Assembly: GCA_025399215.1 (NCBI GenBank) | Contig: MU621302.1 | Span: 1,133 to 29,029 of the forward strand | DNA length: 27,897 bases | Direction: 5' to 3' | DNA from: Globomyces pollinis-pini | Lineage: Eukaryota > Chytridiomycota > Chytridiomycetes > Rhizophydiales > Globomycetaceae | Shown here: positions 1 through 16,776 of the stretch, piece after piece | How positions within the stretch are numbered: position 1 is the first letter of the stretch | Layout of the letters: every line of letters begins with the position of its first letter | The notes under the pieces: generated by a model | Seen by the model: the letters and a program-made list of their open reading frames with translations, nothing else | The model's database searches: none | What the model was told of the DNA's origin: nothing | Made by a program: the position numbers and the translations under genes

Positions 1-43
1 TCAAATTTCAAATTAATTTAAAAAAAAAGGGAGTGACATTTGG

Positions 44-224: not shown

Positions 225-248
225 ACTTTTAACTTTGATTTTCTTTCC

Positions 249-279
249 TTTTTATACCCCGTGTGGCTGGCTAAGCCTC
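249..279 (-). promoter_or_regulatory. U2 promoter: palindromic element plus TATA box
   Basis: On the minus strand a TATA box (TATAAAAA, 249-256) has its first T 32 nt before the RNA 5' end at 224. Just upstream is GAGGCTTAGCCAGCCAC (263-279), a near-palindrome centred 47 nt before the start. The same element at the same spacing precedes most F-box/LRR genes of the window. By position it resembles the proximal sequence element of snRNA genes; that function is inferred. Confidence 0.8.
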
Positions 280-321
280 GTCTCTTCTCATTCGTCCCTT
301 TCTTTTCATTCCAAAAACAAC

Positions 322-390
322 AGACTGAATACCACTGAACTGAGTAGTGAACTGAATACTGAACAGCATACTGAACTGAGTACTGAAGAG
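322..390. repeat. Imperfect ACTGAAC/ACTGAAT short repeat
   Basis: About 70 bases contain repeated ACTGAA(C/T) and GAGTACT-like units, 100-165 bases upstream of the U2 start. A single ACTGAACA(G/A)AGAACC-like block occurs in the upstream regions of F-box genes D and I (near 7446 and 16833), so this may be an expanded form of a shared promoter block. The rest of 391-665 shows no gene; it contains the upstream block at 451-463 described in the findings and the 3' flank of gene A. Confidence 0.45.
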
Positions 391-665
391 TTAAATTACT
401 AACAAATGGTGGTAGTAGATTAGTAGATCATAAACTCTCGGTTTTAACTTAGTGTCATAAGATTAAACAGAACTGATGATTCATAAGATGTATCTTGGTC
501 ATTCACACAGGACGACAATAATTTAACTACAAGCACAACTAAAGAAAGCAAGGTTAGACACTGAATAAGAGACTAAAGGAGGAAACATCACGGTATTAAA
601 GCTTTCACGATCATAAACTTCAATTGATAAAATGAATTATATATTCAATATACAAATTCACACGT

Positions 666-2078
666 TTAAGCATGCCAAAAGTGATCCATCAACGATTGGA
701 GTGACGTTTCATCAAGTGCGATCAAAGATCGCAATGAGGAAACATCTTCAATTGGATTCCTCTCCAGAGAAAGACTTTCCAACTTGACCAATGATGCCAA
801 TGGGGTAACATCAACAATTTGATTCATTTCAAGAGACAAATGTGTCAATTTGATCAATGACGCCAATTGGAAAACATCGTGTATTTGATTCGAATCAAGA
901 TAAAGTACTTCAAGATTAATTAATGATTCCAATGGGGAAATATCTGATATTTGATTTGAATCAAGATACAACCTTTTCAGTTTGGTCAATGATGCCAATG
1001 AGGAGATGTCGACTAGTCGATTCGAATCGAGATACAGTGCGTTCAGTTTGTTCAATGATACCAATGGGGATATGTCAACTATTTCATTCACACCGAGATG
1101 AAGTTCTTCAAGTTTGACCAGTGATGCCATTGTGGAGACATCAACGATACGATTCCTATGCAAATCAATTTTTTTCAGGTTGACTAAAGATATCAAGGGG
1201 GAAATATCAACTATGTGATTCTTTTCAAGGTAAAGTACTTCAAGTTTGATTAAAAATGCCAAAGGAGATACGTCAACTATTTCATTCTCCTGAAGATTAA
1301 GTTCTTGAAGTTTAATTAATGAATTTAATGGGGAAATATCAACTATTTGATTAGTAAAGAGGTAAAGTTTTTCAAGGTTGATCAGTGAAGCTAATGGCGA
1401 TATATCAATTATGCGATTCTCTGCTAGATCAAGTTCTTTGAGGTTTACCAATGATGCCAATGGGGAAATATCTCTTATTTGATTCACACGTAGGCCAAGG
1501 CGTTTAAGGTTGATTAATGAGGTCAATGCATTAATATCAGCTATTCGATTTATATCCAGATTAAGTTTTGTTAGGCTAATAATAGATGCCAATGGTGAAA
1601 TATCAGTTATGTAATTCTGAGCGAGACATAATTCTTTCAATTTGACTAAAGATACCAAGGGAGGAACATGTACTATACAATTCCAGTAGAGATCTAGTTT
1701 TTCAAGACTGACCAATGATTCCAATGGTGAAATAACTGCTGTTTGATCCCATACTATTTCACGTTTAAGATGTCGCAGGTTTTTGAAGATATTCAAAGAG
1801 TTCAAGTTGAAGTTGTGTTTCTTAACTGATATAAATTGAACATTGTCCTTGATAAAATCGGAAACTTCATCCAAATCACTTCTATCTTTAGTCTTTAATA
1901 CTTTTCTTTTTGCAAATAGTTCATTTCTTAAAGGCAGAAAGAATTTGGAAGCCATTGTAAGCTGAGTGAGATCTTTAGGAACGGACCAATCAGCAATCTG
2001 ATGTAGAATATCCATAGGGAGTTGATCTACTCGAGCAGTAGGAAAAGAATGCAGCTGTGAATCTTTAAAGTTAACCAT
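666..2078 (-). CDS. F-box/LRR protein A (470 aa)
   Basis: Probable substrate receptor of an SCF ubiquitin ligase. The F-box is at residues 20-60, starting LPMDILHQIADWS; the LPxDIL...I pattern is the usual Skp1-binding signature. A linker ending NLNSLNIFKNLRHL (about 91-104) leads into about 15 tandem 22-residue LRRs (to about 455) of the type NxIVDISPLASLxxLxxLxL, the SDS22/internalin class. There is no signal peptide or membrane segment, so it is probably cytosolic or nuclear. The ATG at 2078 gives the 19 residues before LPMD seen in most paralogues. It is the last gene of the minus-strand array, next to U2. Its target is unknown; ligase membership is inferred from the domain pair. Confidence 0.85.
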   Translation of the reverse strand: MVNFKDSQLHSFPTARVDQLPMDILHQIADWSVPKDLTQLTMASKFFLPLRNELFAKRKVLKTKDRSDLDEVSDFIKDNVQFISVKKHNFNLNSLNIFKNLRHLKREIVWDQTAVISPLESLVSLEKLDLYWNCIVHVPPLVSLVKLKELCLAQNYITDISPLASIISLTKLNLDINRIADINALTSLINLKRLGLRVNQIRDISPLASLVNLKELDLAENRIIDISPLASLINLEKLYLFTNQIVDISPLNSLIKLQELNLQENEIVDVSPLAFLIKLEVLYLEKNHIVDISPLISLVNLKKIDLHRNRIVDVSTMASLVKLEELHLGVNEIVDISPLVSLNKLNALYLDSNRLVDISSLASLTKLKRLYLDSNQISDISPLESLINLEVLYLDSNQIHDVFQLASLIKLTHLSLEMNQIVDVTPLASLVKLESLSLERNPIEDVSSLRSLIALDETSLQSLMDHFWHA

Positions 2079-2100
2079 ATCGCTTTCACTAAATTTTTAC

Positions 2101-2139
2101 CTTTTATCCTGCACTGACAGTGACTGTTAGAAGTCACTC
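2101..2139 (-). promoter_or_regulatory. Gene A promoter: inverted repeat plus TATA-like box
   Basis: Gene A lacks the common GAGGCTT...AAGCCAC element. At nearly the same place it has a perfect inverted repeat, AGTGACT-N6-AGTCACT (2120-2139), centred about 51 nt before the ATG. A TATA-like GATAAAAG (2101-2108) starts 30 nt before the ATG. It may be a diverged or replaced version of the array promoter. Confidence 0.4.
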
Positions 2140-2399
2140 TTGTATATCTCTTCTACTACCAATGAGTAGTCTTGATACTGTAAGCAAAAGACAAAGACAC
2201 ACCAGATATCAATCAAGTATAGTTAAATACATTGTTGTCTTGTACAAATTGATATTGTGTATTGGATATACCAGATGGAATAGACTTCGAACGCTAGTGT
2301 TAATCAGATTGGAAGAGACATGACGACCGTCGACTTTAATTTGATAAAAAGCGACAAGGTCAATCATAACTACTTGACAACCTTTTAACTGACAAACCT

Positions 2400-2556
2400 A
2401 CCTTCGAGGATACAATGGTGAAATATCAACTTTTGGATTCGAATCAAGAGAAAGTCTATCAAGCTTAGTCAGTGTAATCAATGGCGAAACATCAACTATT
2501 TGAATCTGATGGAGACAGAGACTCTTTAACTGGAACAATAATGACAATGAAGACAC
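2400..2556 (-). pseudogene. LRR remnant downstream of gene B
   Basis: The minus strand still reads as about two LRRs (SSLSLLFQLKSLCL, then QIVDVSPLITLTKLDRLSLD, then SNPKVDISPL) with no start or F-box. The reading frame is the same as that of gene B, whose stop codon lies 45 nt upstream at 2599-2601. The intervening stretch is AT-rich with several stops and is about 12 codons longer than the repeat phase allows. The simplest reading is that gene B once ran further and was shortened by a small insertion. The rest of 2079-2598 holds only gene A's promoter. Confidence 0.6.
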
Positions 2557-2598
2557 GTATTATCAAGCAATTATATTAAAATAGAGTATAACATTTCA

Positions 2599-3924
2599 TT
2601 AGCGACGTGGAAATATGAGGTCAAAATGTTTTAGGTTCACCAAAGATTCTAATGGGAATATATCAACTATTGGATTCGATTTGAGATAAAGCTTTTCAAG
2701 GTTAATCAATGATGACAACGGGGAAATGTCCACTATTAGATTCGAATTGAGTTCAAGATGTTCAAGCTTGATTAAAGATGCCAATGAAGAAACATCAACT
2801 ATTTGATTTACTTCTAGATTAAGTCTTGTTAGGTTGATCAATGATGTTAATGGAGAAACATCACGTATTTCATTCGAATTGAGATGGAGATCTACAAGAT
2901 TAATTAAAGAGGTAAGCGAAGAAATATTGGCTATTTGATTCGCATACAAACGGAGTTCTTCCAGTTTGATCAATGACGCCAATGGGGAAACATCGTACAC
3001 TCTATTCGAATTGAGAGAAAGAACCACAAGTTTGGTCAATGATGTTAATGGGGAAACGTCAATTATTTCGTTTGAATCCAGGTAAAGTTCTCCAAGATTC
3101 ACTAACTTTGCCAATACAGTAAGATCAACTATCTGATTTGAATTGAGATAAAGCTTTTCAAGGTTGGCTAAAGATTCCAAAGGTGGAACATCTGATATAA
3201 AATTCCAATTCAGATTAAGCACTTCAAGTTTGATCAAAGATGCTAAAGGTGAAACATCAACTATTTGGTTCGAATCCAAGCGGAGTTTTTCAATTTTGAT
3301 CAATGTTGCCAATGGAGTAACTTCGACTATTTGGTTGCACGAGAGATCAAGTTCTATAAGGTTTCTTAATGAAGTCAACGGGGAAATATCAACTATTTGA
3401 TTTGAATCAAGATTAAGCTCCTTCAGGTTGACTACAGTTTCCAATGGAGACACATCAATTATTTGGTTACAGCAGAGAGAAAGATGTTTAAGGTTGATCA
3501 AAGACGACAATGGGGAAACATCATCTATACAATTACTACCCAAGTGAAGTTCTTCAAGTTTGGTCAATGATGCTAATGGGGAAACATCAACTAATTGCTT
3601 ACGTCTGATGTGTAATTGCTGAAGATTTGTGAAGATTGCCAAAGAGGTCAAGTTGAAGTTAGGTTTGGAAACTTTTACTGATTGAATAATTTCCTTGATA
3701 AAGTTAGAAAGCTCATCCATATTAGTATCAGCTAAAACAATTAAAGATTTCCTTTTTGCGAATAATTTGGTTCTTATAGGTAGAAGGAATTTGGCAGCCA
3801 TTGAAAACCGAGTTGCATCCTTAGGAAGAGACCAATCTGCAATTTGATCAAGAATATCCATAGGAAGACCTTCTACTTGAATAGGACGCAGCGAGTTCAG
3901 CTGCGATTCTTCCACACTGACCAT
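2599..3924 (-). CDS. F-box/LRR protein B (441 aa)
   Basis: Same family as gene A. The F-box starts at residue 20 (LPMDILDQIADWSLPKD); note DQ in place of the usual HQ/HR. About 15 LRRs follow from about residue 97 to 435. The protein ends abruptly inside a repeat (HFDLIFPRR), and in-frame LRR sequence continues after the stop, so the C-terminus looks secondarily truncated. The ATG at 3924 is 33 nt downstream of the TATA-like box and 46-47 nt from the centre of the palindromic element, as in the other members. Likely an SCF substrate receptor; target unknown. Confidence 0.85.
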   Translation of the reverse strand: MVSVEESQLNSLRPIQVEGLPMDILDQIADWSLPKDATRFSMAAKFLLPIRTKLFAKRKSLIVLADTNMDELSNFIKEIIQSVKVSKPNFNLTSLAIFTNLQQLHIRRKQLVDVSPLASLTKLEELHLGSNCIDDVSPLSSLINLKHLSLCCNQIIDVSPLETVVNLKELNLDSNQIVDISPLTSLRNLIELDLSCNQIVEVTPLATLIKIEKLRLDSNQIVDVSPLASLIKLEVLNLNWNFISDVPPLESLANLEKLYLNSNQIVDLTVLAKLVNLGELYLDSNEIIDVSPLTSLTKLVVLSLNSNRVYDVSPLASLIKLEELRLYANQIANISSLTSLINLVDLHLNSNEIRDVSPLTSLINLTRLNLEVNQIVDVSSLASLIKLEHLELNSNLIVDISPLSSLINLEKLYLKSNPIVDIFPLESLVNLKHFDLIFPRR

Positions 3925-3949
3925 TGAACTATCTGAGCTAATTCTTCAT

Positions 3950-3978
3950 ATTTTAAATGGAAGTGGCTACCAAGCCTC
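3950..3978 (-). promoter_or_regulatory. Gene B promoter module
   Basis: GAGGCTTGGTAGCCAC (3963-3978) is the shared palindromic element with one base missing in the middle. TTTAAAAT (3950-3957) stands in for the TATA box. Upstream, 3979-4301 holds no gene; an ACCAGTC block near 4039 resembles blocks upstream of genes D and F. Confidence 0.65.
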
Positions 3979-4301
3979 TCCAGTGCTACCTTTGGACTGA
4001 TGTATGAGTAATTGTTAAGTACACGTAATCTGTAATTACCAGTCTTGACAACTGATGATTGTCCTGAAGACAAGAGCATTGCAAGTTTGAAATTATGGAC
4101 ATCATTTATAACTATTGAGTATCGTGTTTAACACGACAACAGGTCACACTATTGCTTCTCTAGAATCTGTAAATGGAGAACTGTAATCTCTACCACTAAG
4201 AAATTTAATGAGTGATTGCATGAATAATCAACATCATGGCATAGGAAATTGGATTATTCTCATGTGATGATCCAATGTAAAGTAACAGTACCAGTGAAAA
4301 A

Positions 4302-5300
4302 TTATATATAGATAGTAACAGAGTCGTTGAAGTATTCCAATTGGGAAAGATCAATTATTTGATTCGACTTGAGAAAAAGCTCTTGAAGATTGTCCAATAA
4401 CACCAATGGGGAAACGTCAGCTATTTGGTTCGAACTGAGATACAGATGTGTCAAGTTGACTAATGCTGATAATGGGGATACATCAACGATTTCATTCGAA
4501 TTGAAATACAGTACCTCAAGTTTAACCAATGTTGTTAATGAGGAAACATCAACTATCTGATTTGAATAGAGATGAAGTTCTTTAAGGTTAATCAATGATG
4601 CCACTGGAGAAACGTCAACTATATGATTCGAATCGAGATTAAGTATGGTAAGATTGAGTAATGATTCCAATGGAGAAATATCCACTATTCGATTCGAATC
4701 AATACATAAGACTCTAAGGTTGACTAACGTTGCTAAGGTGGTGATATCCAGTACATGAATGGAATTGAGGTCAAGGTATTTGAGGTTCACTAATGACTTT
4801 AATGGGGAAATATCAGCTATTGGATTCGAACCAAGATGAAGTTTTTCAAGTTTGCGTAATGTTGCCAATGGAGAAATATCGACTATTTGATTCCGTTCAA
4901 GATTAAGTTCTTTAAGGTTGATTAATGGTGCCAATGGAGAGATATCAAATAATTTACCACGTACGAGACGCATACATTGAATATCCTTGAATATTTTCAA
5001 AGTAGTTAATTGAAAGTTCTGTTTCGTCACATTGACAGATTGAATTTGGTCCTTGATAAAACCGGGGAGTTCATCCAGATCAGTTCCATCTTTAATGGTT
5101 AAAGTTTTCCTTTTCGCAAATAGTTCAGTTCTTAAAGTTAGAAAGAATTTGGAAGTCATTGTAAGCTGAGTGAGATCTTTGGGGTGAGACCAATCAGCAA
5201 TCTGATGAAGAATATCCATAGGGAGTTGACATACTTGAGTGCCACGATACGAGTGGATTGTAAAGTCTTCCATATCCCCAAGAAAAAAAGTATTTTTCAT
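4302..5300 (-). CDS. F-box/LRR protein C (332 aa)
   Basis: The shortest intact member of the array. The F-box (LPMDILHQIADWSHPKDLTQL) begins at residue 26 if the ATG at 5300 is used, or at 17 from the ATG at 5273 (MEDFT). The linker is well conserved (DGTDLDELPGFIKDQIQSVNV). About 10 LRRs follow and the protein ends LEYFNDSVTIYI. One repeat is irregular (NSIHVLDITTLATL). The F-box domain is closest by eye to that of gene A (both have HPKD/VPKD-LTQLTM). The start is uncertain because the usual promoter module is absent. Role as for the other members, inferred. Confidence 0.82.
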   Translation of the reverse strand: MKNTFFLGDMEDFTIHSYRGTQVCQLPMDILHQIADWSHPKDLTQLTMTSKFFLTLRTELFAKRKTLTIKDGTDLDELPGFIKDQIQSVNVTKQNFQLTTLKIFKDIQCMRLVRGKLFDISPLAPLINLKELNLERNQIVDISPLATLRKLEKLHLGSNPIADISPLKSLVNLKYLDLNSIHVLDITTLATLVNLRVLCIDSNRIVDISPLESLLNLTILNLDSNHIVDVSPVASLINLKELHLYSNQIVDVSSLTTLVKLEVLYFNSNEIVDVSPLSALVNLTHLYLSSNQIADVSPLVLLDNLQELFLKSNQIIDLSQLEYFNDSVTIYI

Positions 5301-5703
5301 CGCGCCGCTTAGTCTTTATTCGACCCTACTTTTTAAAACACCAGAAAAGAATTCGCGACCCTACCTGTTATTTTCGTCATTTAAGGACTTGGACTCATTC
5401 TTTCAACGCAAAGAACTAAGTTATCTTCATACTAACCAACAGTGAAAGTTTCATAAACTGGAATACAAAATGTAATGTATATCAATAGAAAAATAATTGT
5501 AATCACTACTGGTTTAACTTCATTTTTAGTATTCAATGATGTTTCAGTTTAGTTTTAGAAACCTTTTCAATAAGTGATTTGTAACGATTTTTTATGGAGG
5601 ATTATTTAATTTGTTTATAAGAAAATGGGTTCTCGGAGGATTAATAAACTTGATAATAATCACACAAACATACAGACGCGCTATTTTACAATTGCTTTAT
5701 TCT
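5301..5703. other. Intergenic region without the shared promoter element
   Basis: Upstream of gene C there is no GAGGCTT...AAGCCAC element. A TTTTAAAAAG tract (5329-5338) could act as a TATA box 37 nt before the ATG at 5300. The 9-mer CGACCCTAC occurs twice, at 5321-5329 and 5356-5364. I see no gene here; the right half is the AT-rich 3' flank of gene D. Confidence 0.45.
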
Positions 5704-7341
5704 TCAATGTATAAAATCACGTAAGAGTAATGACCTTACTGGGGAAAAGTCAACAATTCGATTCCGACGAATAAAAAGTGATTGAAGTCTGACCAATGAT
5801 GCCAACGGACCAATATCAACTATTTGATTTGTCTCGAGATCAAGTTCTTGAAGGTTGATCAATGATGCCAATGCGTTAACATCAACTATTTGATTCCCAC
5901 CAAGAAGAAGGTGTTTAAGTTTCACATATAATGCCAAAGGGGACACATCAACTATTTGATTCGAACCAAGAGAAAGATGTGTCAGGTTGATTAATGATGT
6001 TAATGAGGAAATATCGACTATTAGATTCGATTCGAGATGAAGCACTTGAAGTTCAGTTAGTGATGCCAAATGAGAAACATCTACTATTCGATTCGAGTTT
6101 AGTTTAAGTACCACAAGGTTTACTAATACTGCCAATGGGGAGATATCAAAAATGTGGTTTTCGCCAAGATAAAGTATTTCAAGTTGGATCAATGATGACA
6201 ATGGTGAAACATCGACTACATCAGTCCCATTTAGACGTAGTTCTTCAAGTTTGGTAAATGATGCTAATATTGAAATATCTACTATATGATTTGATTCAAG
6301 ATGAAGGATTACAAGGTTGACTAAAGATTCCAATGGGGAGATATCAGATATTCGATTATTATTAAGGTGCAGTTCTTCAAGTTTCCGCAATGCTGCCAAT
6401 GGATAAATATCGAGTATTTGATTCCGACCTAGATGTAAGCCTTTCAAATTGACTAAAGATGCCAATGGGGTAATATCAACAATAAAATTATCACCAAGAT
6501 CAATTGTTTGTAGTCTGCTCAATGATGCTAATATAGAAATGTCAGCTACTTGATTCGATTCCACATAAAGATGTTTAAGGTTCAATAAATACGTCAATGA
6601 AGAAATATCAACTACATGATTGGATTTGAGATTGAGTAATTGAAGTTGAACCAATGATGTCAGTGGCGAAATATCAACTATGTTATTATTACTGAGATCA
6701 AGCTCTCTTAAGTTGATTAATGGTTCCAATGGAGAAACATCAACTATTCGATTGCATTCGAGATTAAGTTCTTGTAATTTGACCAATGATGCCAATGCAG
6801 AAATGTCCGATATTTCATTCGAATAGAGACCAAGTTTTCTTAAGTTGATCAATGGTGTCAATGAAGAAATATCAAAGATTTGATTCCCTTCGAGATTAAG
6901 TTTTTCGAGAGTTGTAAGTGATGCCAATGCTGAGATATCAACTATTCCATTCCAATTCAGAGACAGTTCTTTGAGATTAGTTATTGACCCTAATGCAGAA
7001 ACACCATCTAAATTATACCTTCGGAGATGTAGATGTTGAATATTCTTGAAGATTGTTAAAGAGTTTAAGTTAAAGTTATTGTTGCTCACTTGCACAGATT
7101 GAATATTGCTCTTGATGAAAGTGGGAAGTTCATCCAATTCAGTTCCATCTTCAATAACGAAAGCTTTCCGTTTCGCAAATAGCTCGTTTCTTATACCCGA
7201 AAAGAACTTAGAAGCCATAGAAAACTGAGTGACATCCTCGGGGTCACACCAAGAAGCAATTTGATGATGAATATCCATAGGGAGACCTTCTATTGTAATT
7301 CCATAAGAAGAGGACGGTTTAGAGTTTTCCCAGTCAATCAT
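5704..7341 (-). CDS. F-box/LRR protein D (545 aa)
   Basis: The longest intact member. The reading frame is open from a GTG at 7350, but the first ATG is at 7341 (MIDWENSKPSS) and gives the family's 19 residues before LPMD, so I start there. The F-box is LPMDIHHQIASWCDPEDVTQ (residues 20-39, continuing to about 55), with an H in place of L in DILH. About 20 LRRs run from about residue 95 to the end, with one lacking the conserved Asn (LNGTDVVDVSPL). The ATG lies 32 nt from the TATA-like box and 47 nt from the element's centre, identical to the U2 geometry. Likely SCF substrate receptor. Confidence 0.87.
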   Translation of the reverse strand: MIDWENSKPSSSYGITIEGLPMDIHHQIASWCDPEDVTQFSMASKFFSGIRNELFAKRKAFVIEDGTELDELPTFIKSNIQSVQVSNNNFNLNSLTIFKNIQHLHLRRYNLDGVSALGSITNLKELSLNWNGIVDISALASLTTLEKLNLEGNQIFDISSLTPLINLRKLGLYSNEISDISALASLVKLQELNLECNRIVDVSPLEPLINLRELDLSNNNIVDISPLTSLVQLQLLNLKSNHVVDISSLTYLLNLKHLYVESNQVADISILASLSRLQTIDLGDNFIVDITPLASLVNLKGLHLGRNQILDIYPLAALRKLEELHLNNNRISDISPLESLVNLVILHLESNHIVDISILASFTKLEELRLNGTDVVDVSPLSSLIQLEILYLGENHIFDISPLAVLVNLVVLKLNSNRIVDVSHLASLTELQVLHLESNLIVDISSLTSLINLTHLSLGSNQIVDVSPLALYVKLKHLLLGGNQIVDVNALASLINLQELDLETNQIVDIGPLASLVRLQSLFIRRNRIVDFSPVRSLLLRDFIH

Positions 7342-7364
7342 ATTCTCCACTTGCCAAATTTTAG

Positions 7365-7396
7365 CTTTTTAACATAGATGTGGCTTGCGAAGCCTC
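7365..7396 (-). promoter_or_regulatory. Gene D promoter module
   Basis: GAGGCTTCGCAAGCCAC (7380-7396) has perfect 5-base arms GGCTT/AAGCC. The TATA position reads GTTAAAAAG (7365-7373). Further upstream a bZIP/AP-1-like TGAGTCATAAGATGA begins at 7544. Blocks between 7400 and 7715 match the region upstream of gene I (16780-17105), including ATCGATACAAATTAC and TACATGTCAC. Confidence 0.8.
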
Positions 7397-7779
7397 ATCC
7401 TGTTTCCTGTATCTTGGACTAAATTATTGTATACACGATCACTGCACTGAACAGAGAACCAAGATTCAATATCAAATAGAACCAGCACTAATACTGGTAT
7501 TCAATAACCAGTCGAGTTTCGCGATAATGGCTAGCGGTAAATCTGAGTCATAAGATGACACTGATTCAACTATTTGCATAACAATTTAATATTTTTTTTG
7601 TGCGGTGCGTAAGGATTAGACATATAAATGTTAGTTTTGATGTATAAATCGATACAAATTACAACACTTGGATAACGAGATAAAAATGAACCATTAAATA
7701 TGTACATGTCACAATATGCAGATTGGGTATAAAGGAAGCATTTATAATTTTATTCCAGAATGCATTAAATAATTTTATA

Positions 7780-8157: not shown

Positions 8158-8165
8158 TTTTTCTT

Positions 8166-8176
8166 CTAAGCCTCAC
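8166..8176 (-). promoter_or_regulatory. Half of the shared promoter element, gene E
   Basis: Only GTGAGGCTTAG of the palindromic element survives, in register with the ATG at 8118. No TATA box is visible at the expected place. Confidence 0.5.
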
Positions 8177-8223
8177 TTGTACCTACTTTAACTGATATTT
8201 ATCAAAAGAAACCAATTATTGAA

Positions 8224-8470
8224 AGAGAAGTTCTTCATCAACTATATGGAACATCAACTTTTGGGATTATTTACACCAGTTTTGATATATTTTAAACCGG
8301 ATACTAATGGATATAGGTTATGATTGGTGGATAAACGGATAATGAATATCGTCAAAGCGGTAGCTTTATTATCTCTTTTATCAGCAGCAAGACAGCTATA
8401 CAAAGATTCCATCAACTACTTGATTCAATTCAAGGTTAAACTGTGTAAAATTGATCAATGGCATCCATGG
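8224..8470 (-). pseudogene. LRR scraps between genes E and F
   Basis: 8396-8470 reads on the minus strand as PLINFTQFNLELNQVVDG followed by a stop. Its DNA copies the 3' end of gene F: ATCAACTACTTGATTCA and CAAAGATTCC are shared, but an 11-base stretch present in gene F is missing. A second scrap near 8224-8272 contains NPKVDV. These look like a duplicated and deleted tail of an LRR gene. Confidence 0.5.
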
Positions 8471-8532
8471 TTAAACAATATCTATCTGATTCTAGAAGAT
8501 CATTATCTATCTGATTCTATCATATAGAATTT

Positions 8533-10158
8533 CTACTGATACTGAACACGTTCGTACAAAGATTCCAGAAGAGATTTATCAACTACTTGATTCAGTTCCA
8601 CGCTAAGGTCTTTAAGGTTAACCAATGATACCAATGGCGATACTTCAACTATTAGATTCGATTCTAGGTTAAGTTCTAGTAGTGCTGTCAAAGTTGTTAA
8701 TGGAGAAGCATCGACTATACGATTGGATTTGAGATTTAGTGATAAAAGATTGTTCAATGGTACCAAAGGGGAAATGTCAACTATTCGATTCGATTCGAGA
8801 TCAAGCTGTTCAAGTCTAACCAATGTTTCCAATGCAGAAACATCACTTATTTTATTCGATGCGACGTCAAGTTGTTCAAGATTAATCAATGATTTCAGTC
8901 CAAAAACATCGGGTATTAGATTGGAATTGAGTGACAGGTATTCAAGACTGATTAATGAAGCAAATGGGGAAACATCGGCTATTTGGTTCCCATTAAGATT
9001 AAGCAGTTCAAGGTTGGTTAATAGTGCCAATGGGGACACATCAACTATTTGATTTTCTTCAAGATAAAGTATTTTAAGTTGAATCAAAGATGCCAATGGA
9101 GAAATATCCGCTATTTGATTATAACTAATTGAAAGCTGTTCAAGCTTTATCAAAGATGTCAATGAGGACAGATCATCTATTTGATTCCCCGAGAGATCCA
9201 ATTTTTGAAGGTTCAGTAATGATGCCAATGAAGAAATATCAACTACTGAATTTCTTGAGAGGTCAAGCTCTTGAAGATTAGTCAATCCTGCCAACGTATA
9301 AATATGAAATATTTGATTTTGATAGAGATTTAGCCTTTTAAGGTTGATCAATGATGCTAGTGGGGAAACATCGACAATTTCATTCATATTCAGATTACGT
9401 TCTTGAAGTCCAAGAAATCCATCAGATGAAGCGAGAGAAATCTCTCTAAGGTTGATTAAATTTGTCAATTGGGAAATATCAACTACAGGATTCGATGAAA
9501 GATCAAGTTTTTCAAGGTTGATAAATGTTGATAATGGGGAAATGTCGACAATTTTATTCGATGCTAGTTGAAGTTCTTTTAGATTAATCAGTGATACCAA
9601 TGGGGAAACATCAACTACTTGATTCCAAGATAGATCAAGTTTCTCAAGTTCTATCAATGTTGACAATGGTGAAACATCAACTATTCGATTGGCCACGAGT
9701 TGAAGCTCTTGCAGTCTAATCAGTGATGCTAATGGGGATACGTCAACCATTCTATTACATCCGAGAAAAAGACGTTTAACTGTTATCAATGACACCAAAA
9801 AGGAATTCGGAATTCTTTTTTTTCGACCATCTAGGTGCAGATGTTGAAGATTCTTGAACATAGTTAGAGAGGTCAAGTTAACGTTCCATGTTAGAGTCTT
9901 TATCGATTGAATATTGTTCTTCATAAAGCTGGAAAGTTCATCCAGATTAGCACCATTTTTAACAGTTAAAATCTTCCTTGTTGCAAATAGTTCAATTCTT
10001 AATGGCAGAAAGAATTTGGAAGCCATTGAAAATTGAGTAACGTCGTTAGCGTCAGTCCAATAAGCAATTCGATGAAGAATATCCATAGGAATACTTTCTA
10101 TTTGAATAGGACGACAAGATTCTAAGCTAATCATATCACTCTTCCTTCCAATTTTCAT
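8533..10158 (-). CDS. F-box/LRR protein F (541 aa)
   Basis: The frame opens at a TTG (10167), but the first ATG is at 10158 (MKIGRKSDMISLES), 29 nt from the TATA box; ATG 10134 (MISLES) is the alternative. The F-box begins IPMDILHRIAYWTDANDVTQ, with Ile for Leu and an unusual DAND in place of the P-rich turn. About 19 LRRs follow. One region is out of phase: LREISLASSDGFLGLQERNLNMNEI, around 9385-9455, has a repeat about eight residues too long, suggesting unequal crossing-over between repeats. It ends ESLYERVQYQ. Role inferred as SCF substrate receptor. Confidence 0.85.
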   Translation of the reverse strand: MKIGRKSDMISLESCRPIQIESIPMDILHRIAYWTDANDVTQFSMASKFFLPLRIELFATRKILTVKNGANLDELSSFMKNNIQSIKTLTWNVNLTSLTMFKNLQHLHLDGRKKRIPNSFLVSLITVKRLFLGCNRMVDVSPLASLIRLQELQLVANRIVDVSPLSTLIELEKLDLSWNQVVDVSPLVSLINLKELQLASNKIVDISPLSTFINLEKLDLSSNPVVDISQLTNLINLREISLASSDGFLGLQERNLNMNEIVDVSPLASLINLKRLNLYQNQIFHIYTLAGLTNLQELDLSRNSVVDISSLASLLNLQKLDLSGNQIDDLSSLTSLIKLEQLSISYNQIADISPLASLIQLKILYLEENQIVDVSPLALLTNLELLNLNGNQIADVSPFASLISLEYLSLNSNLIPDVFGLKSLINLEQLDVASNKISDVSALETLVRLEQLDLESNRIVDISPLVPLNNLLSLNLKSNRIVDASPLTTLTALLELNLESNLIVEVSPLVSLVNLKDLSVELNQVVDKSLLESLYERVQYQ

Positions 10159-10179
10159 GTTTTTCAAAACCGTTTTAAA

Positions 10180-10210
10180 CTTTTATAGTGGATGTGGCTT
10201 GCTTCGCCTC
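10180..10210 (-). promoter_or_regulatory. Gene F promoter module
   Basis: GAGGCGAAGCAAGCCAC (10194-10210) is followed by TATAAAAG (10180-10187). The element's centre is 44 nt from ATG 10158. A TGAGTCG block at 10352 corresponds to the TGAGTCA upstream of genes D and I. Confidence 0.8.
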
Positions 10211-10893
10211 ACATATAAATCTTGGATATATTTCTCTGGATACAAGGTTAGCTTACTGGACAAAGAAACCTGATTCAATCGATTGGAATTAATAGTAACA
10301 CGTGTCATTCAATCACCAGTAGAGTTTCACGAGAATGGCTACCTGAATATCTGAGTCGTTAGATAAAACGATTCATTAGTTGAAACTGATTCATAAGTGT
10401 CAAGTATTTGGAATAACAATTTGAATTTTTCAACTACCAGTAAGTAATGATTGGGTATATAAATGCATACCTAAACTCTATTTCAGATATGTTCAATTGT
10501 AACGGGCGAACGGAACACCCTAGAAATATATTCCTCTCCCACAAATAGATGTAATCATTCATTGTTTCGATAATTGGATGAGAGCTTTATTAAATAGTAC
10601 CAATCTATCAAAAAATCCCAAATCTTTGTATGTATTTAGCACCATGGCATACAGACACGTCATTTCGAAGCTATATAGCATGAAAAACTTGGGACGGCAT
10701 ATTCGAACAAAGCAAAAAAAGGGATTGTGTTTTATTGATAACTATACTGATTGGTCGAAATAAAGAGATATGTGTGGAATGTTAAACACGTCTGATTTTC
10801 TGTCACGCTCTTAATAGAAATATATACAAGTGCAGGGATTACATTTGAAACATACACGGCGATTCGATGTTGTTTATTATTAACCGCTTATAA
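10211..10893. other. Intergenic region upstream of gene F, no clear gene
   Basis: The right-hand neighbour is the 3' end of gene G. The first 250 bases are conserved promoter-like blocks shared with genes D and I (ACCAGTAGAGTTTCACGAGA, AACAATTTGAAT). A 61-codon plus-strand frame at 10578-10763 has no recognisable motif or promoter and I do not call it. Confidence 0.4.
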
Positions 10894-12072
10894 TTAGTTG
10901 AGAGATATTTCGCAATTGTGTAGAGATTCCAACGGAGATTCATCAACTATTTCATTGAACTCGAGGCTAAGCCTTTTAAGGTTGGTCAACGATGCCAATG
11001 GAGATACATCAATAATTTCATTTGCTTGCAAGTAAAGTTCTTCAAGTTTGGTCAAAGTTGCTAGTGGCGAAAGATCGACAATTCGATTTTCTGCGAGTGT
11101 GAGCATTTTAAGGTTCACCAATGATGCCAATGGAGAAATATCGACAATGCTATTAGGATAGAGAGAAAGATCTTGCAGCTTGATTAGAGATGCCAACGGT
11201 GTAATATCAACAATTTCATTCGAATTGAGATTCAGTTCTCGAAGCTTGATTAAAGTTGCTAACGGTGTAACATCTACTATGTTATTTAATTCGAGATCAA
11301 GTATTTCAAGATTTAGTAAAGATGCCAATGGAGAAATATCCAGTATTTCATTAAAAGTAAGATGTAATACTTTAAGATTTACTAAGCATGGGAAAGTGGA
11401 AATATCAAGTGTGGGAATGTGACTGAGGTCAAGATGTTTTAGGTTCACCAAAGATTGTAATGGGGAAATATCCACTATTGGGTTGCCCTGGAGACCAAGC
11501 GTTTCGAGTTTGATTAATGGTTCCAATGAACTTATGTCGACTATTTGATTCGAAGAGAGATCAAGTATTTCAAGTTTGGTTAATGATGCCAATGGAGAAA
11601 TATCGACTCTTTGATTCGAATAGAAATGAAGCTCTTGAAGTTTGATCAATGATGCCAATGGAGAAATGTCAGATATCTGATTCCTATTGATACAAAGTTT
11701 TCTTAAGTTAATCAATGATTCTAATGGAGAAATATCAGATATTTTACCATGCTGGAGAAGCAAAGATTGAACATCCTTGAATAGTTTCAAAGAGTTCAAG
11801 TCGTAGTTCCTTTTGTACATTTCTATAGATTGAATATTTTCCTTTACAAACTTTGATAGTTCGTCCAGGTTAGTTCCATCCCTAATAATCAAGGCTTTCC
11901 TTTTTGTGAATAGTTTGATTCTTAAAGGAAGAAAGAATCTGGAAGACATTGAAAGTTGAGTGACATCCTTAGGGCAAGACCAATCAGCAATCCGATAAAG
12001 AATATCCATAGGTAAGGTTTCTATTTGGGAAGGTCGAAGAGAGTCCATTCGATATTCCATGTAGTTTACCAT
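10894..12072 (-). CDS. F-box/LRR protein G (392 aa)
   Basis: The F-box begins LPMDILYRIADWSCPKDVTQ at residue 20, with Tyr in place of the common His. The linker is DGTNLDELSKFVKENIQSIEM. About 13 LRRs follow; two are irregular (YSNQRVDISPL and SHIPTLDIST). It ends SLHNCEISLN. The ATG at 12072 (MVNYMEYRMDS) gives the family's 19-residue leader; the second ATG at 12060 lies 50 nt from the promoter element's centre. Same inferred function as its neighbours. Confidence 0.84.
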   Translation of the reverse strand: MVNYMEYRMDSLRPSQIETLPMDILYRIADWSCPKDVTQLSMSSRFFLPLRIKLFTKRKALIIRDGTNLDELSKFVKENIQSIEMYKRNYDLNSLKLFKDVQSLLLQHGKISDISPLESLINLRKLCINRNQISDISPLASLIKLQELHFYSNQRVDISPLASLTKLEILDLSSNQIVDISSLEPLIKLETLGLQGNPIVDISPLQSLVNLKHLDLSHIPTLDISTFPCLVNLKVLHLTFNEILDISPLASLLNLEILDLELNNIVDVTPLATLIKLRELNLNSNEIVDITPLASLIKLQDLSLYPNSIVDISPLASLVNLKMLTLAENRIVDLSPLATLTKLEELYLQANEIIDVSPLASLTNLKRLSLEFNEIVDESPLESLHNCEISLN

Positions 12073-12101
12073 TCAATAAATTGTTTCCAGGTTTTGTGCT
12101 T

Positions 12102-12118
12102 GTGGCTTGCTTGCTTTT
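12102..12118 (-). promoter_or_regulatory. Gene G promoter element (right half only)
   Basis: AAAAGCAAGCAAGCCAC keeps the right half (GCAAGCCAC) of the shared element while the left half has changed. No good TATA box is present where expected. Positions 12119-12394 contain no gene I can support. Confidence 0.5.
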
Positions 12119-12394
12119 TGGTTTGGGACTCGAAAGGAATTTCTCCGTTGTGGCGACAATACCATTGGAGACTAAATTTTAAAGAACGTAAATGGTGGAT
12201 GAGAATCACGATAAAGTACGAATAATTAACTTCAAATTAAGTTTGCAAGAAAAAAACGCGACTGGACTCAATATATACACGTCAGAAAAAAAACCGAATC
12301 AAAAGTTTATCTTCAAAAGGATAGTAATATCTGTGTTAAATTCAGTGAATCGAAGTGTGGAATGATATGCCTGTTGAACCTTTTCATCGGAAGC

Positions 12395-12556
12395 TTAAAA
12401 ATCATGGAGCTGAATTTGATCTGAATTACTCACCGTACGAAAGTATTTAGAAGCCATTGAAAACTGAGTAACATCCCCCAGACTAGGCCAATAGGCAATC
12501 CGATAGTAAATATCTATAGCAATACTTTCTATTGAATTATCATTAGAAGAGTCCAG
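12395..12556 (-). pseudogene. F-box ghost gene with lost start codon
   Basis: The minus strand reads DSSNDNSIESIAIDIYYRIA, then YWPSLGDVTQFSMASKYFR, clearly the family F-box, then runs off into unrelated sequence and a stop at 12395-12397. LRRs are gone. LPMD has become IAID. Where the ATG should be, 31 nt after a good TATA box, there is a CTG (12554-12556). The promoter is still recognisable, so the gene died in its coding part first. It lies between the 3' end of H and the promoter of G. Confidence 0.7.
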
Positions 12557-12579
12557 AAGAGTCCTCTCCCTTTTAAAGC

Positions 12580-12610
12580 TTTTTATACTGACTGTGTCTT
12601 GCTAAACCCA
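12580..12610 (-). promoter_or_regulatory. Promoter module of the ghost gene
   Basis: TGGGTTTAGCAAGACAC (12594-12610) is a decayed copy of the shared element, with an intact TATAAAAA (12580-12587). Its centre is 46 nt from the mutated start. Confidence 0.6.
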
Positions 12611-12783
12611 TACAGACACGTGTAAGTTAACAACTTTAGTGTACAAAGATATTTATGGTTCCTTTATTCACAACCGACTAGGCCTGATTACACCTCTTAC
12701 TTACCTTTTCACTCGCGTCTCAGGTAGCTTTGAGAGTAAGTAAAAGGAATTCATGTGCTTATTATCTAGCAATTCTATCTTCT

Positions 12784-14447
12784 TTATTCGTCATAGTTAC
12801 AATTAGGATAAATAATGGCACAGTCGTATAAACAATCCAATGTGTATTTATCAATGATCGGATTCCATTCTATATCAAGGTGTTTAAGGTTGGTCAAAGA
12901 TGACAATGGGGATACAGACACAATTTCATTATCTCGCAGATTAAGCTCTTCAAGGGCAAGCAATGAGGCTAGTGCGGTAACATCAACAATTTGGTTTGAT
13001 TTCAGCGACAAGTCATTAAGTTTGATTAAATATGCTAATGACGAGATATCAACAATTTGATTCGAATGCATGCGAAGTCTTTCGAGGTTGATTAAAGATG
13101 CTAATGGCGAAATATCAACAATATGATTTGAATTCAGATAAAGGTCATAAAGATTGATTAAAGACGCCAATGATGAAATATCGACAATTTTGTTTGAATG
13201 CAGCAAAAGTTCTCTTAGATTCGTTAGAGATGCCAATGGTGAAATATTGACAATTTGGTTCGAATCCAGCCAAAGTTTTCTAAGGTTAATCAATGATGAT
13301 AATGGGGACACATCAACTATTTTATTCGCTGTGAGTCGAAGTTTTCTAAGGTTGATCAAAGATGCCAATGGTGAAATGTCAAATAATGGTATCAAAGAGA
13401 GATCAAGAGATGTCAAGTTGATTAATGATTCCAAAGGAGAAATAGAGAATTTATAATTCTGATAGAGATGCAGTTTTTTAAGCTGTGTCAATGACTCCAA
13501 TGGAGATATATCAACTATTTCATTTGAATTAAGATTTAATTTTTCAAGGTTGATCAGCGATACCAGTGGGGAAACATCCACTATTTTATTCTCACAAAGG
13601 TATAGTTGTTCAAGGTTGATCAATGAAGCAAATGGAGTCACATCAACTATCTTGTTCTCAATGAGTTGAAGTTGTTGAAGGTTGAATAAGATGCCAATGG
13701 AAAAACATCAGCTATTTCATTTCCACCAAGATTTAGCTTTTTGAGGTTGATTAATGATGCCAATGGTGATACATCTACTAGTTGGTTCAAGTCGAGATTC
13801 AGTACTTCAAGGTTAATTAATGATTCCAGTGGTGAAATATCCATTATTCGATTATCTTTGAGAATAAGCTTTTCAAGGTTGATAAGAGATGCCAACGGAG
13901 AGACATCTACAATTTGATTCGACTCGAGAGAGAGATGTTGAAGATGAACTAATGATGCCAAAGGGGAAATATCAACGATATAATTCCAATCGAGATGAAG
14001 CTCTTGAATTTTCACCAATGCTTCTAAAGAGGAGATATCCTTTATTTGATTCTCATTAAGAATCAGTATTTCAAGTTCGCTGAGTGATTCAAGTGGGCAA
14101 ATATGCCCCTTTTTCTCCAATGTGATGCACAACTGTCTAAGATTCTTGAACCTCTGTAATAGATGGAAATGAAAGTCACAGTTTTGAAATTTCACAGATT
14201 GAAGATTATCATTAACCTTTAAAAAATTGGAAAGTTCATTCTCATTAGTGCTGTTCTGAAGAATTAAGGTTTTCCTTGTTGCAAATAGTTCAGTTCTTAT
14301 AGGAATAAAGAACTTCGAAGCCATTACAAGCTGAGTGAGATCTTTAGGGTGACACCAACAGGCAATTCGATGAAGAATATCCATAGGAAGACTTTCTATT
14401 GTAATTCCATGAGAAGAGGACAGTTGAGAGTTTTCCAAGTCAATCAT
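12784..14447 (-). pseudogene. F-box/LRR gene H, broken by a one-base frameshift
   Basis: The first half reads from ATG 14447 (MIDLENSQLSS; the frame upstream begins with GTG at 14456). It has the F-box LPMDILHRIACWCHPKDLTQ and about six LRRs, then leaves frame at 13684-13694, where the usual LASLINL codons lack one base, and stops at 13647. In the next frame perfect LRRs resume at once and run to 12784, ending CLYDCAIIYPNCNYDE. Together there are about 19 repeats. Both halves are otherwise undamaged, so the break is either recent or a sequencing error in a repetitive region; the nearby N gap makes an assembly error plausible. Confidence 0.75.
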
Positions 14448-14471
14448 CTTCCCCACTTGCCAAATTTTCCC

Positions 14472-14503
14472 TTTTTTATACTGAGTGTGGCTTGGTAAAT
14501 CAC
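14472..14503 (-). promoter_or_regulatory. Gene H promoter module
   Basis: GTGATTTACCAAGCCAC (14487-14503) keeps the right half of the element and outer GTG/CAC symmetry. TATAAAAAA is at 14472-14480. Spacings to ATG 14447 are 48 nt from the centre and 33 nt from the first T. Positions 14504-14774 contain no gene. Confidence 0.7.
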
Positions 14504-14774
14504 TTCCAAATTCCCACGGATATTGACATGATTAGTTTGAAATATTAGTTGTATTCCATAATATCCCACATATTTGATTGTAGTTAAACAGTTAGAACAC
14601 GTCATTATTGATCCCATGCAACTTATATACTTGAGGAAGATATTAATACACATTCCAAGTTATGAAACAATTAGAATGAACGGCAATCTAATTTAGTATT
14701 TTAAGAATTGAAGACTTTATTAACACATCTTTAAAGTCATCTCTCGCTAAAAGCCAATTGTGTGGGGAAATATC

Positions 14775-16719
14775 TTATCTGTATTCGTGAAGTTCATCAA
14801 AAAGCCAAACGTCCAATGAAGGCAATGATAAAATTGGGGAAAAGTCAGCAACTCGATGTTGATCAAAAGAAATATAATTAAGCCGGTCTAAATTTTTCAA
14901 TGCGGAAACATCTACTATTTGATTTGATTGAATATTAAGACACTCCAGTTTAACTAATGTTGCCAATGGGGTAACATCCACTATTTGATTCGAACGCAGT
15001 GAAACCATTTCAAGTTCGATCAATGATGCCAATGGGGATATATCGACTATTTGATTATAATCAAGATATAGATCATAAAGAAGTATTAAAGATGCCAGTG
15101 GGGATATATCATCTATTCGATTCTCATCCAGGTTCAGATCTGAAAGGTTGACCAATTTTACCAAGGGCGATAGGTCAGCTATTCGATTCTTATTAAGACG
15201 AAGCTTTTCAAGTTTGACCAAGGCTGACAATGGGGAGATATCTACTATATTGTTATCATTGAGATTTAGTTCTTCAAGTTTGACCAAGGTTGACAATGGG
15301 GAGATCTCAACTATACAGTTACCATTTAGATGTAGTTCTTCAAGCTCTATCAAAGGTTCCAATGAAGATACATCTTCTATCATATTCATATCGAGATCAA
15401 GTCTTTTAAGATTGACCAAGGATGCAAATGGAGAAATATCAACTATTTGATTTTCCTTGAGATAAAGTTCTTCAAGCAGTATCAAAGTTTCCAATGGAGA
15501 NNNNNNNNNNNNNNNNNNNNNNNNNNNNNNNNNNNNNNNNNNNNNNNNNNNNNNNNNNNNNNNNNNNNNNNNNNNNNNNNNNNNNNNNNNNNNNNNNNNN
15601 NNNNNNNNNNNNNNNNNNNNNNNNNNNNNNNNNNNNNNNNNNNNNNNNNNNNNNNNNNNNNNNNNNNNNNNNNNNNNNNNNNNNNNNNNNNNNNNNNNNN
15701 NNNNNNNNNNNNNNNNNNNNNNNNNNNNNNNNNNNNNNNNNNNNNNNNNNNNNNNNNNNNNNNNNNNNNNNNNNNNNNNNNNNNNNNNNNNNNNNNNNNN
15801 NNNNNNNNNNNNNNNNNNNNNNNNNNNNNNNNNNNNNNNNNNNNNNNNNNNNNNNNNNNNNNNNNNNNNNNNNNNNNNNNNNNNNNNNNNNNNNNNNNNN
15901 NNNNNNNNNNNNNNNNNNNNNNNNNNNNNNNNNNNNNNNNNNNNNNNNNNNNNNNNNNNNNNNNNNNNNNNNNNNNNNNNNNNNNNNNNNNNNNNNNNNN
16001 NNNNNNNNNNNNNNNNNNNNGAATGCCAAAGGGGAAATATCTACTATTCCAGTATGACCAAGGTGAAGGACTTCCAGATTAACCAATGCTCCCAAAGCCG
16101 AGATATCCAGGATGTGATTCTCATTAAGGTTAAGTCTTTTAAGGTTGATCAAAGTTGCCAATGGAGAAATATCAACTATTGGATTCCATTGGAGATCAAG
16201 TTCTTCAAGTTTTACCAATGCTGCCAAAGGAGAGATATCCATGATTCGATTACGATCAAGGACGAGTTTTTTAAGGTTGATCAATGCTACTAATGGGGAA
16301 AGAGATTCTATTCGATAATTAACAAGTTCAAGTTGTTTCAGTGTGATTAAGGATGCCAATGGCGAACCGTCAACTATATCACCACTCTGTAGTGAAAATT
16401 TTACACATAAGTTTTGGATATTCTTGAAGATTGTTAAAGAACTTAAATCCACTTCTCTTGCTCGAACTATTACCGATTGTATGTTGTCCTTGATAAAATT
16501 GGAATGTGTATCCAGGTCCGGTTTATTGTAAATAATAAAGGCTTTCCTTTTTGAGAATAGTTCCATTCTTAATGGGAGAAAGTGTTTGGAAGCCATTGAA
16601 AACTGAGTGAGATCTTCAGTGTTGGACCAGTTGGCAATTTGATAAAGAACATCCATAGGAAGACTTTCTATTGGAATGCCATGAGAAGGATCCAGTCGCG
16701 AGCTTTCCAAGTTAAACAT
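14775..16719 (-). CDS. F-box/LRR protein I, interrupted by an assembly gap
   Basis: The N-terminal part starts at ATG 16719 (MFNLESSRLDPS), the first ATG after a GTG-opened frame at 16737. It carries the F-box LPMDVLYQIANWSNTEDLTQ and about five LRRs, then enters the N gap at 16020. After the gap, from 15500, LRR sequence continues on the same strand (PLETLILLEELYL) for about 10 repeats and ends WLFDELHEYR. The 520 Ns are not a multiple of three, so the gap size is not exact, or a second gene boundary lies inside it. I treat the two parts as one gene, since no F-box or stop is seen at either edge. Confidence 0.72.
15501..16020. other. Assembly gap (520 N)
   Basis: Unsequenced stretch inside the LRR region of gene I. 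Gaps are expected in near-identical 66-base repeats. Confidence 0.98.
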
Positions 16720-16745
16720 ATTTTCTTTCCATCCCACATTTTAGC

Positions 16746-16776
16746 TTTTTATACAGGTAGTGGCTTGCTAAGCCTC
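16746..16776 (-). promoter_or_regulatory. Gene I promoter module (best copy)
   Basis: GAGGCTTAGCAAGCCAC (16760-16776) with TATAAAAA (16746-16753). Centre and first T are 49 and 34 nt from ATG 16719. Upstream it shares AAGATACAGGAAACAGG with gene D. A TGAGTCATAAGATGA block begins at 16952. Positions 16777-17248 hold no gene. Confidence 0.85.

Follow-up and report, generated by a model that had tools for sequence, protein, structure and literature searches.

Why should a spliceosomal U2 snRNA gene and a series of F-box/LRR protein genes carry the same promoter element? The question is raised by a stretch of 27,897 nucleotides from the chytrid Globomyces pollinis-pini (hereafter the window, meaning the whole stretch analysed). 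A sequence-only reading of it had offered two explanations: either the protein genes are driven by an snRNA-type (PSE-like) element, or U2 has captured the promoter of an F-box gene. The element consists of two AAGCCWC half-sites approximately 10 bp (one DNA turn) apart, lying 6 bases 5′ of TATAAAAAG. The 17-mers quoted for U2 and for genes I, D and F were all found on the minus (gene) strand, and the copies quoted for gene B (a 16-mer), gene H and a ghost gene, as well as half copies at genes E, G and K, were all located. The features are:

5 to 29, minus strand: snRNA 3′ box C(T)nAAATTAATTTGAAAT, directly 3′ of U2 and common to U4 and U5
34 to 226, minus strand: U2 snRNA gene (Rfam RF00004, 135.4 bits, full length)
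224, minus strand: predicted U2 RNA 5′ A, the 33rd base counting from the first T of the TATA box
248 to 256, minus strand: U2 TATA box TATAAAAAG, 6 bases after the element
263 to 279, minus strand: U2 promoter element GAGGCTTAGCCAGCCAC, half-sites inverted, start spacing 10, one mismatch (paired half-site scan)
2599 to 3924, minus strand: gene B, LRR protein of 441 aa (ORF)
3963 to 3978, minus strand: gene B element GAGGCTTGGTAGCCAC, half-site start spacing 9; TATA slot TTAAAATAT at 3948 to 3956
5704 to 7341, minus strand: gene D, LRR protein of 545 aa (ORF)
7380 to 7396, minus strand: gene D element GAGGCTTCGCAAGCCAC; TATA slot GTTAAAAAG at 7365 to 7373
8163 to 8174, minus strand: half copy GAGGCTTAGAAG before gene E, without TATA module
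8533 to 10158, minus strand: gene F, LRR protein of 541 aa (ORF)
10194 to 10210, minus strand: gene F element GAGGCGAAGCAAGCCAC; TATAAAAGT at 10179 to 10187
12098 to 12112, minus strand: half copy AAGCCAC before gene G (10894 to 12072), without TATA module
12594 to 12610, minus strand: ghost-gene element TGGGTTTAGCAAGACAC; TATAAAAAG at 12579 to 12587
13647 to 14447, minus strand: gene H, F-box/LRR-like ORF of 266 aa
14487 to 14503, minus strand: gene H element GTGATTTACCAAGCCAC, 3′ half-site intact; TATAAAAAA at 14472 to 14480
15472 to 16719, minus strand: gene I, F-box/LRR-like ORF with an N gap at 15501 to 16020; its N-terminus was used as search seed
16760 to 16776, minus strand: gene I element GAGGCTTAGCAAGCCAC; TATAAAAAG at 16745 to 16753
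27455 to 27468, plus strand: half copy AAGCCAC before gene K; degenerate TATA TTGAAAAGG after 6 bases

At up to 3 mismatches the 17-mer matches four times in the window (U2, I, D and F) against 0.03 expected, and 0/100 shuffles of the window gave four matches. The TATA-like box does follow at a near-constant distance: TATAAAA comes 6 bases after the 3′ half-site at U2, I, F, H and the ghost gene, and in gene D GTTAAAAAG occupies the slot in the same register. A promoter model built from 10 F-box/LRR promoters only (E values over 69,262 bases) scored U2 at 27.0 bits (E 2.4e-7) and the gene K half copy at 13.7 bits (E 0.0042). Over the region of the RMT2, PIS1, dioxygenase and secreted-protein genes, names that come from the sequence-only reading and were checked only in part, the model peaked no higher than 7.3 bits, in agreement with the statement that these genes lack the element; the secreted-protein gene has TATAAAAAG without a half-site. 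The name F-box is only weakly backed by Pfam for this subfamily: gene D scores 16.6 bits against a cut-off of 20.5 and gene B has no match, while two more distant paralogues score 21.9 and 26.4 bits. A protein search with gene D returned 4,322 matches, the best 120 of which were generic LRR proteins and thus uninformative. In gene H, LRR-coding sequence runs on downstream, beyond the 266-aa ORF.

Only one U2 gene was found, Rfam giving a single match in the assembly, so no further U2 copy came to light from which the element could be absent. U4 and U5 were fetched by Rfam, independently of the motif, and both carry paired half-sites just 5′ of TATAAAAAG. A half-site pair is thus common to these snRNA genes, though not in the arrangement of U2: in U4 and U5 the two half-sites face the same way and stand at another distance from TATA, whereas the U2 pair is inverted and six bases away. 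Half-site pairs were found at 3/3 located snRNAs. Under a pairing rule framed after viewing these genes (both half-sites within 60 nt before TATAAAAAG), dinucleotide shuffles reach U4 in 7/20,000 and U5 in 14/20,000. Such pairs precede 1/142 other TATAWA sites, that one being on C115 and itself fetched for the motif. The paired half-site scan covered a nearly non-redundant set of 160 kb, in which L048 and L049 overlap. An exact half-site within 45 nt before TATAAAA occurs at 3/3 snRNAs against 0/25 sites on loci outside the F-box family that the half-site-TATA pattern had not retrieved, some of these being loci fetched by the 17-mer. The F-box-only promoter model gave U4 15.0 bits (E 0.0017) and U5 6.0 bits (E 1.2). 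A site of 15.0 bits, equal to the score of U4, also occurs at L069, a non-family locus presumably flanked by a kinase-like gene and another gene; it has weak snoRNA matches only, and we discount this locus as support.

Moreover, a common 3′ box, C(T)nAAWTAATYTGAAAT, follows U2, U4 and U5 no more than a few bases from the RNA 3′ end, a pattern derived from these three genes themselves after viewing them. No match to it was found elsewhere in the examined sequence set, F-box/LRR genes included. The Rfam search of the genome found neither U1 nor U6. A search for the U1 5′ end downstream of a TATA picked out one candidate, on C103, but this appears to be coding sequence and Rfam matches nothing in it up to E 10; two conserved blocks of U6 gave one false match and none. 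The assembly may lack U1 and U6, or the two may have diverged, and their non-detection therefore counts neither for nor against the element.

SNAPC3 is encoded (PF12251, 79.1 bits), and the encoded protein matches human SNAPC3 in PDB (E 1.2e-5). The well-studied yeasts are not known to have SNAPc. Counting from the predicted RNA 5′ A as +1, the U2 element lies at −55 to −39. This fits the position of the PSE, some 40–70 bp upstream of the start (PMC9652321). In human, the core of SNAPc touches the DNA over register −57 to −35, beginning 8 bp upstream of the TBP site, and probably serves as a ruler that sets the start (PMC9758055). We consider it fairly probable that an snRNA-type (PSE-like) core promoter, presumably bound by SNAPc, serves the spliceosomal snRNA genes and one subfamily of F-box/LRR protein genes. 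This version is favoured over capture by U2 because half-site pairs precede TATAAAAAG at U4 and U5; it is upheld in part, since the use of SNAPc is deduced from sequence.

How widely is the element distributed? In 18.5 Mb, the 17-mer at up to 2 mismatches occurs at six places: U2, D, F, I, an F-box/LRR gene on C188 and another gene on C115 (L005), where the nearest TATAAAAA lies 32 nt after the element. At up to 3 mismatches there are 11 places against 9 for the reversed control. We regard the five additional places (L007–L011) as background, given the control count and the lack of an Rfam match at gathering score in any of the five; one of them (L011, on C427) has a dyad without TATA. AGCCAC-N6-TATAAAA has eight listed matches genome-wide, 7/8 being U2 or F-box/LRR. 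A general core promoter is not what is seen, the 17-mer being nearly confined to U2 and F-box/LRR genes. Other F-box/LRR loci carry the element on C188, C329 (two genes) and C318, but not on C246 or in the distant paralogues sampled.

An ordinary TATA-proximal activator could bind the half-site in a modest set of Pol II genes, with no SNAPc at the protein genes. This alternative survives best, and we hold it to be rather unlikely. The looser pattern AGCCAC-N5-11-TATAAAA has 24 genome matches against 6 for the control, and 15 of the 24 are neither snRNA nor F-box/LRR (four similar loci, of which the one tested is a carbonic anhydrase, and 11 others, thioredoxin and alternative oxidase genes among them). 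Half-site pairs in either orientation also resemble the site of a dimeric activator. However, the 11 other loci only modestly exceed the 6 of the control, the strict N6 spacing and the 17-mer keep almost wholly to U2 and the F-box/LRR genes, the half-site is absent from the 25 comparison sites, and −55 to −39 is the position of a PSE.

Capture by U2 of a regulatory site of the F-box/LRR family, the half-sites of U4 and U5 being coincidental, is improbable. U2 does adjoin gene A, downstream of it and on the same strand, at the end of the array, and the inverted pair with six-base TATA spacing is common to U2 and the F-box genes and not to U4 or U5. Against this, U2 and F-box upstream sequences outside the element and TATA are 21–32% identical over 100 nt in 8 comparisons, which is the random level, and pairs such as those of U4 and U5 are rare in shuffles.

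On the PSE-like reading, a SNAPc-like complex containing the encoded SNAPC3 would bind the half-sites and place TBP on the TATA box, and the Pol II start would be fixed approximately 33 bases downstream, counted from the first T of TATA. The predicted RNA 5′ A is at 33, 33 and 34 from TATA in U2, U4 and U5. The A of the start codon falls 30–35 from TATA in 7/10 element genes (the inner ATG being chosen for C318 and K, and gene G left out as it has no TATA), against 41–57 in 7/7 control ORFs, six of which come from half-site-selected loci. On this start-codon geometry the F-box/LRR mRNA would be near-leaderless. Transcripts of the snRNA genes would end at the 3′ box, whereas the F-box/LRR genes, without a 3′ box, would start near the ATG in most cases and give a nearly leaderless mRNA. 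We tentatively suggest, as a possibility, that the subfamily is under a SNAPc-type promoter with its ATG at the fixed start, such that leaderless or near-leaderless mRNAs are co-regulated with the splicing RNAs and the lack of a 3′ box allows run-on into mRNA.

That Pol III makes the F-box/LRR transcripts, using a U6-like promoter (PSE plus TATA), is very improbable. A TATA beside the PSE sets Pol III specificity in human type 3 promoters (PMC3499247), but each of the 8 ORFs checked contains 1–7 internal runs of at least T4 (longest T4 to T7), and U2, U4 and U5, with the same TATA, contain internal T5, T5 and T7 runs. These runs make it more likely that the promoters are Pol II.

Within the subfamily, a half-site or more precedes 13/17 genes, those without the element being A, C, J and C246. 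The module was found in 0/18 sampled distant paralogues, and scans of their whole stretches gave 0/18 within 2 mismatches, with C88 and C367 at 3. These 18 comprise 17/20 fetched stretches and L039 (L084 and L089 lack the N-terminal anchor, and L090 is C318) and are a sample of a family with 186 matches, 150/214 candidates having been scored. In the upstream-only scan, C270 and C373c offered just 76 and 247 nt of upstream sequence, respectively; the whole-stretch scan covers both. Over 27 F-box promoter pairs, drawn only from genes chosen for having the module, identity is 96% in the 3′ half-site and 79% in the TATA box; the spacer is 35% and the 100 nt upstream 28% identical, so that the flanks are near random. 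B and C329b were left out of these pairs because of spacing indels. An N-terminal tree of 28 rows (without the ghost gene, C318 and five distant paralogues) separates 15 subfamily members (11 carrying a half copy or more, 4 carrying none) from 13 distant paralogues (support 85/68). Branching within the subfamily is poorly resolved for the most part, and four changes of the element label are required. We suppose that the subfamily may have gained the promoter in a single event, perhaps in or around the U2 locus, with duplication spreading it afterwards; the tree does not settle this. Chance or passive inheritance, in which recent duplicates have kept common upstream sequence and the U2 match is fortuitous, is scarcely credible and already contradicted: I and D do agree at 95% over the 20 nt preceding the element, but the flanks of the other 27 F-box pairs are near random, four matches stand where chance would give almost none, and copies lie on C188, C329 and C318.

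Co-option of snRNA promoters is known for non-coding RNAs, namely nematode piRNAs and dodder microRNAs. The top-ranked open-access PMC literature showed neither a protein-coding family run by an snRNA promoter nor an account of chytrid snRNA promoters. If the PSE-like reading is true, the snRNA-only character would be separable into promoter and 3′ box, the subfamily would be a natural case of a SNAPc-fixed start site on top of a start codon, and the signals described here would offer a first consensus for snRNA genes in an early-diverging fungus.

The arrangement resembles the metazoan PSE/SNAPc system in that several snRNA genes have a common element 5′ of the TBP site, at approximately −55 to −39, in that SNAPC3 is encoded and in the 3′ box downstream of the snRNAs. 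The human SNAPc core covers two turns of DNA and likely fixes the start (PMC9758055 and PMC9652321). Unlike the metazoan PSE, the sequence here is made up of two AAGCCWC half-sites, the element stands before a protein-coding family as well, and the snRNA genes, which look Pol II, also have a TATA box. Human SNAPc is described at some seventy loci, which comprise the Pol II snRNA genes, the type 3 Pol III genes and a few that lack annotation (PMC3499247). In nematode piRNA promoters, the Ruby motif, from SNAPc-bound snRNA promoters, is likewise a core element co-opted by a large gene family, and the loci are clustered in some species (PMC6436959); those loci are non-coding, whereas the targets here are protein-coding. 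The trans-species MIRNA loci of Cuscuta also reuse an upstream sequence element of U-snRNA genes in a lineage-specific gene set, but they are plant non-coding RNAs with Pol III features (commentary PMC10226582). Lastly, the Class I RNAs of dictyostelids, although non-coding, have an element (DUSE) approximately 60 nt from the start that is also associated with spliceosomal RNA genes (PMC7919456).

The element reads GAGGCTT-AGC-AAGCCAC, that is, two inverted AAGCCWC half-sites whose starts lie 10 bases apart; a half-site followed by a TATA box is here called the module. The copies quoted in the sequence-only reading are present at the genes it named. The window corresponds to C213:1133-29029; its dioxygenase is 47% identical to the nearest named relative, from the Rhizophydiales chytrid Globomyces pollinis-pini, and on this ground the organism is treated as chytrid-like. 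Within the window the 17-mer has 4 matches at ≤3 mismatches (0.03 expected), and across the genome (18.5 Mb, 459 contigs) it has 11, against 9 for the reversed control. At ≤2 mismatches there are 6 places genome-wide: U2, array genes I, D and F, an F-box/LRR gene on contig C188 and one other gene, on contig C115. The C188 gene is arranged like U2, with the element, 6 bases, TATAAAAAGG and then the start codon. AGCCAC-N5-11-TATAAAA occurs at 24 places in the genome against 6 in the control, comprising U2, U4, 7 F-box/LRR genes (F, H, I, C188, two on C329 and one on C318), four similar loci and 11 others. With exactly 6 bases between the two parts there are 8 places, 7 of them U2 or F-box/LRR genes and 1 an alternative oxidase gene. 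The four similar loci (L048, L049, L068 and L070) have in common a promoter stretch, AAAGCCACC...TATAAAA; L049, the only one of them tested, codes for a carbonic anhydrase.

U4 (C90) and U5 (C272) were fetched by Rfam alone. With RNA ends set by similarity to other U RNAs, U2, U4 and U5 each carry TATAAAAAG, and the putative first A of the RNA is at base 33, 33 and 34, respectively, from its first T. All three contain internal T runs (T5, T5 and T7), which favours Pol II over Pol III. Moreover, a common 3′ box follows each RNA:

Window 5-29, minus strand: C(T)nAAWTAATYTGAAAT, a few bases past the 3′ end of the U2 RNA
Locus L044, after U4: the same box
Locus L013, after U5: the same box

In the sequence scanned, F-box/LRR genes included, there was no other match to this box, a candidate snRNA 3′-end signal for chytrids.

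We scanned 56 fetched, nearly non-redundant stretches (160,272 bases) for paired half-sites in any orientation, at a spacing of 9-12 and with ≤1 mismatch in total. This gave 10 pairs: U2, B, D, I, C188, one C329 gene, U4, U5, C115 and C427, the last two fetched beforehand for their likeness to the 17-mer. Across six first-order random sequences of equal length the total was 1 pair, a comparison weakened by the rule having been framed after the U4 and U5 pairs were seen. The latter are direct repeats, at spacings of 10 (U4) and 11 (U5, one mismatch), and end 10 and 13 bases before TATAAAAAG, against 6 in the U2-type layout. When the 60 nt preceding TATA were dinucleotide-shuffled, a paired half-site arose in 7/20,000 cases for U4 and 14/20,000 for U5. 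At C115:16163-16179 (L005 1501-1517) lies a near-palindrome, GTGGCTTAGCACGCCAC, with the nearest TATAAAAA 32 nt further on; the gene downstream is cyclin-like by eye, and the one exon tested had no Pfam match. At C427:6271-6287 (L011 1501-1517) a full dyad precedes an ORF, and no TATA box was seen.

An exact half-site ≤45 nt before TATAAAA was found at 10/30 sites in loci fetched by half-site and TATA, at 7/20 on contigs with F-box genes and at 3/3 snRNA genes, and at 0/25 of all other sites. Paired half-sites preceded only 1/142 other TATAWA sites, that of C115, itself motif-fetched. We also trained a promoter model on ten F-box/LRR promoters, leaving out all snRNA genes, and scored 69,262 bases with it. 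U2 reached 27.0 bits (E 2.4e-7) and U4 15.0 bits (E 0.0017); the U5 score was low, at 6.0 bits (E 1.2). The U4 score is not decisive alone, since among other loci (58,631 bases) the top non-family site, at a motif-fetched locus, also scored 15.0 bits. Separately, L069 1637-1712 gave a weak, apparently intronic C/D-box snoRNA match (E 0.11, below the gathering score), with a double AGCCAC plus TATAAAAAG upstream of it.

Among 17 members of the F-box/LRR subfamily, the module is found in 9 at ≤2 mismatches and in 11 at ≤3, and at least one half-site in 13 (absent from A, C, J and C246). None of 18 sampled distant paralogues had the module at ≤2 mismatches anywhere in the fetched stretches. In a tree, 15 sampled subfamily members (11 with an element copy, 4 without) separate from 13 distant paralogues with support 85/68. 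Over 27 pairs from eight module-bearing promoters, omitting the I-D pair as recent duplicates, identity was 96% in the 3′ half-site and 79% in TATA, figures partly built in because the genes were picked for having the module; it was 35% in the spacer, 28% in the 100 nt upstream and 35% in the 28 nt downstream. Common flanks are thus not the source of the shared module. The subfamily would have acquired the promoter once, presumably by co-option from snRNA genes. By eye, window 2400-2600, 8400-8530 and 12400-12610 carry LRR-coding remnants between array genes and a ghost gene whose promoter looks intact, and these suggest birth and death within the array. Elsewhere, the protein encoded at window 23250-24470 (+) looks secreted; it has three nearly identical Cys-rich repeats and gave no Pfam match.

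Counted from TATA, the start-codon A lies at bases 30-35 in 7/10 element genes: 33 (B and D), 30 (F, from its first ATG), 34 (H), 35 (I), 34 (C188) and 34 (C318, from its third ATG, the first being at 13). It lies at 42 and 44 in the C329 genes and at 41 in K by an inner ATG (first ATG at 17). In G, counted apart as it has no TATA, the position is 24 or 36. Control ORFs with an upstream TATAAAA had it at 41-57 (7/7), 6 of the 7 being from half-site-selected loci. If transcription of the F-box/LRR genes starts at base 33-34, the position inferred for the snRNAs, their mRNAs would be almost leader-free; one account describes leaderless mRNAs as translatable in eukaryotic systems (PMC5124965).

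Taken together, we favour, as the rather more probable reading, a PSE-like, SNAPc-type core promoter common to snRNA genes and one F-box/LRR subfamily, in which SNAPc would bind the element. The main rival explanation, a moderately common activator site close to TATA, is less likely. The sequence-only reading had proposed a PSE-like snRNA element driving protein genes, or an F-box promoter captured by U2. Its snRNA-type part gains from the paired half-sites at U2, U4 and U5, the three snRNA genes on which it was judged. The interpretation as a whole is partly rather than fully supported, because the use of SNAPc is presumed and the comparison covers these three snRNAs. A SNAPC3 gene is encoded (PF12251, 79.1 bits), matching human SNAPC3 in the PDB (E 1.2e-5). 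According to one structural account, the human SNAPc core binds two DNA turns at register -57 to -35, beginning 8 bp upstream of where TBP sits, and probably sets the start at a fixed distance (PMC9758055). The present element spans -55 to -39.
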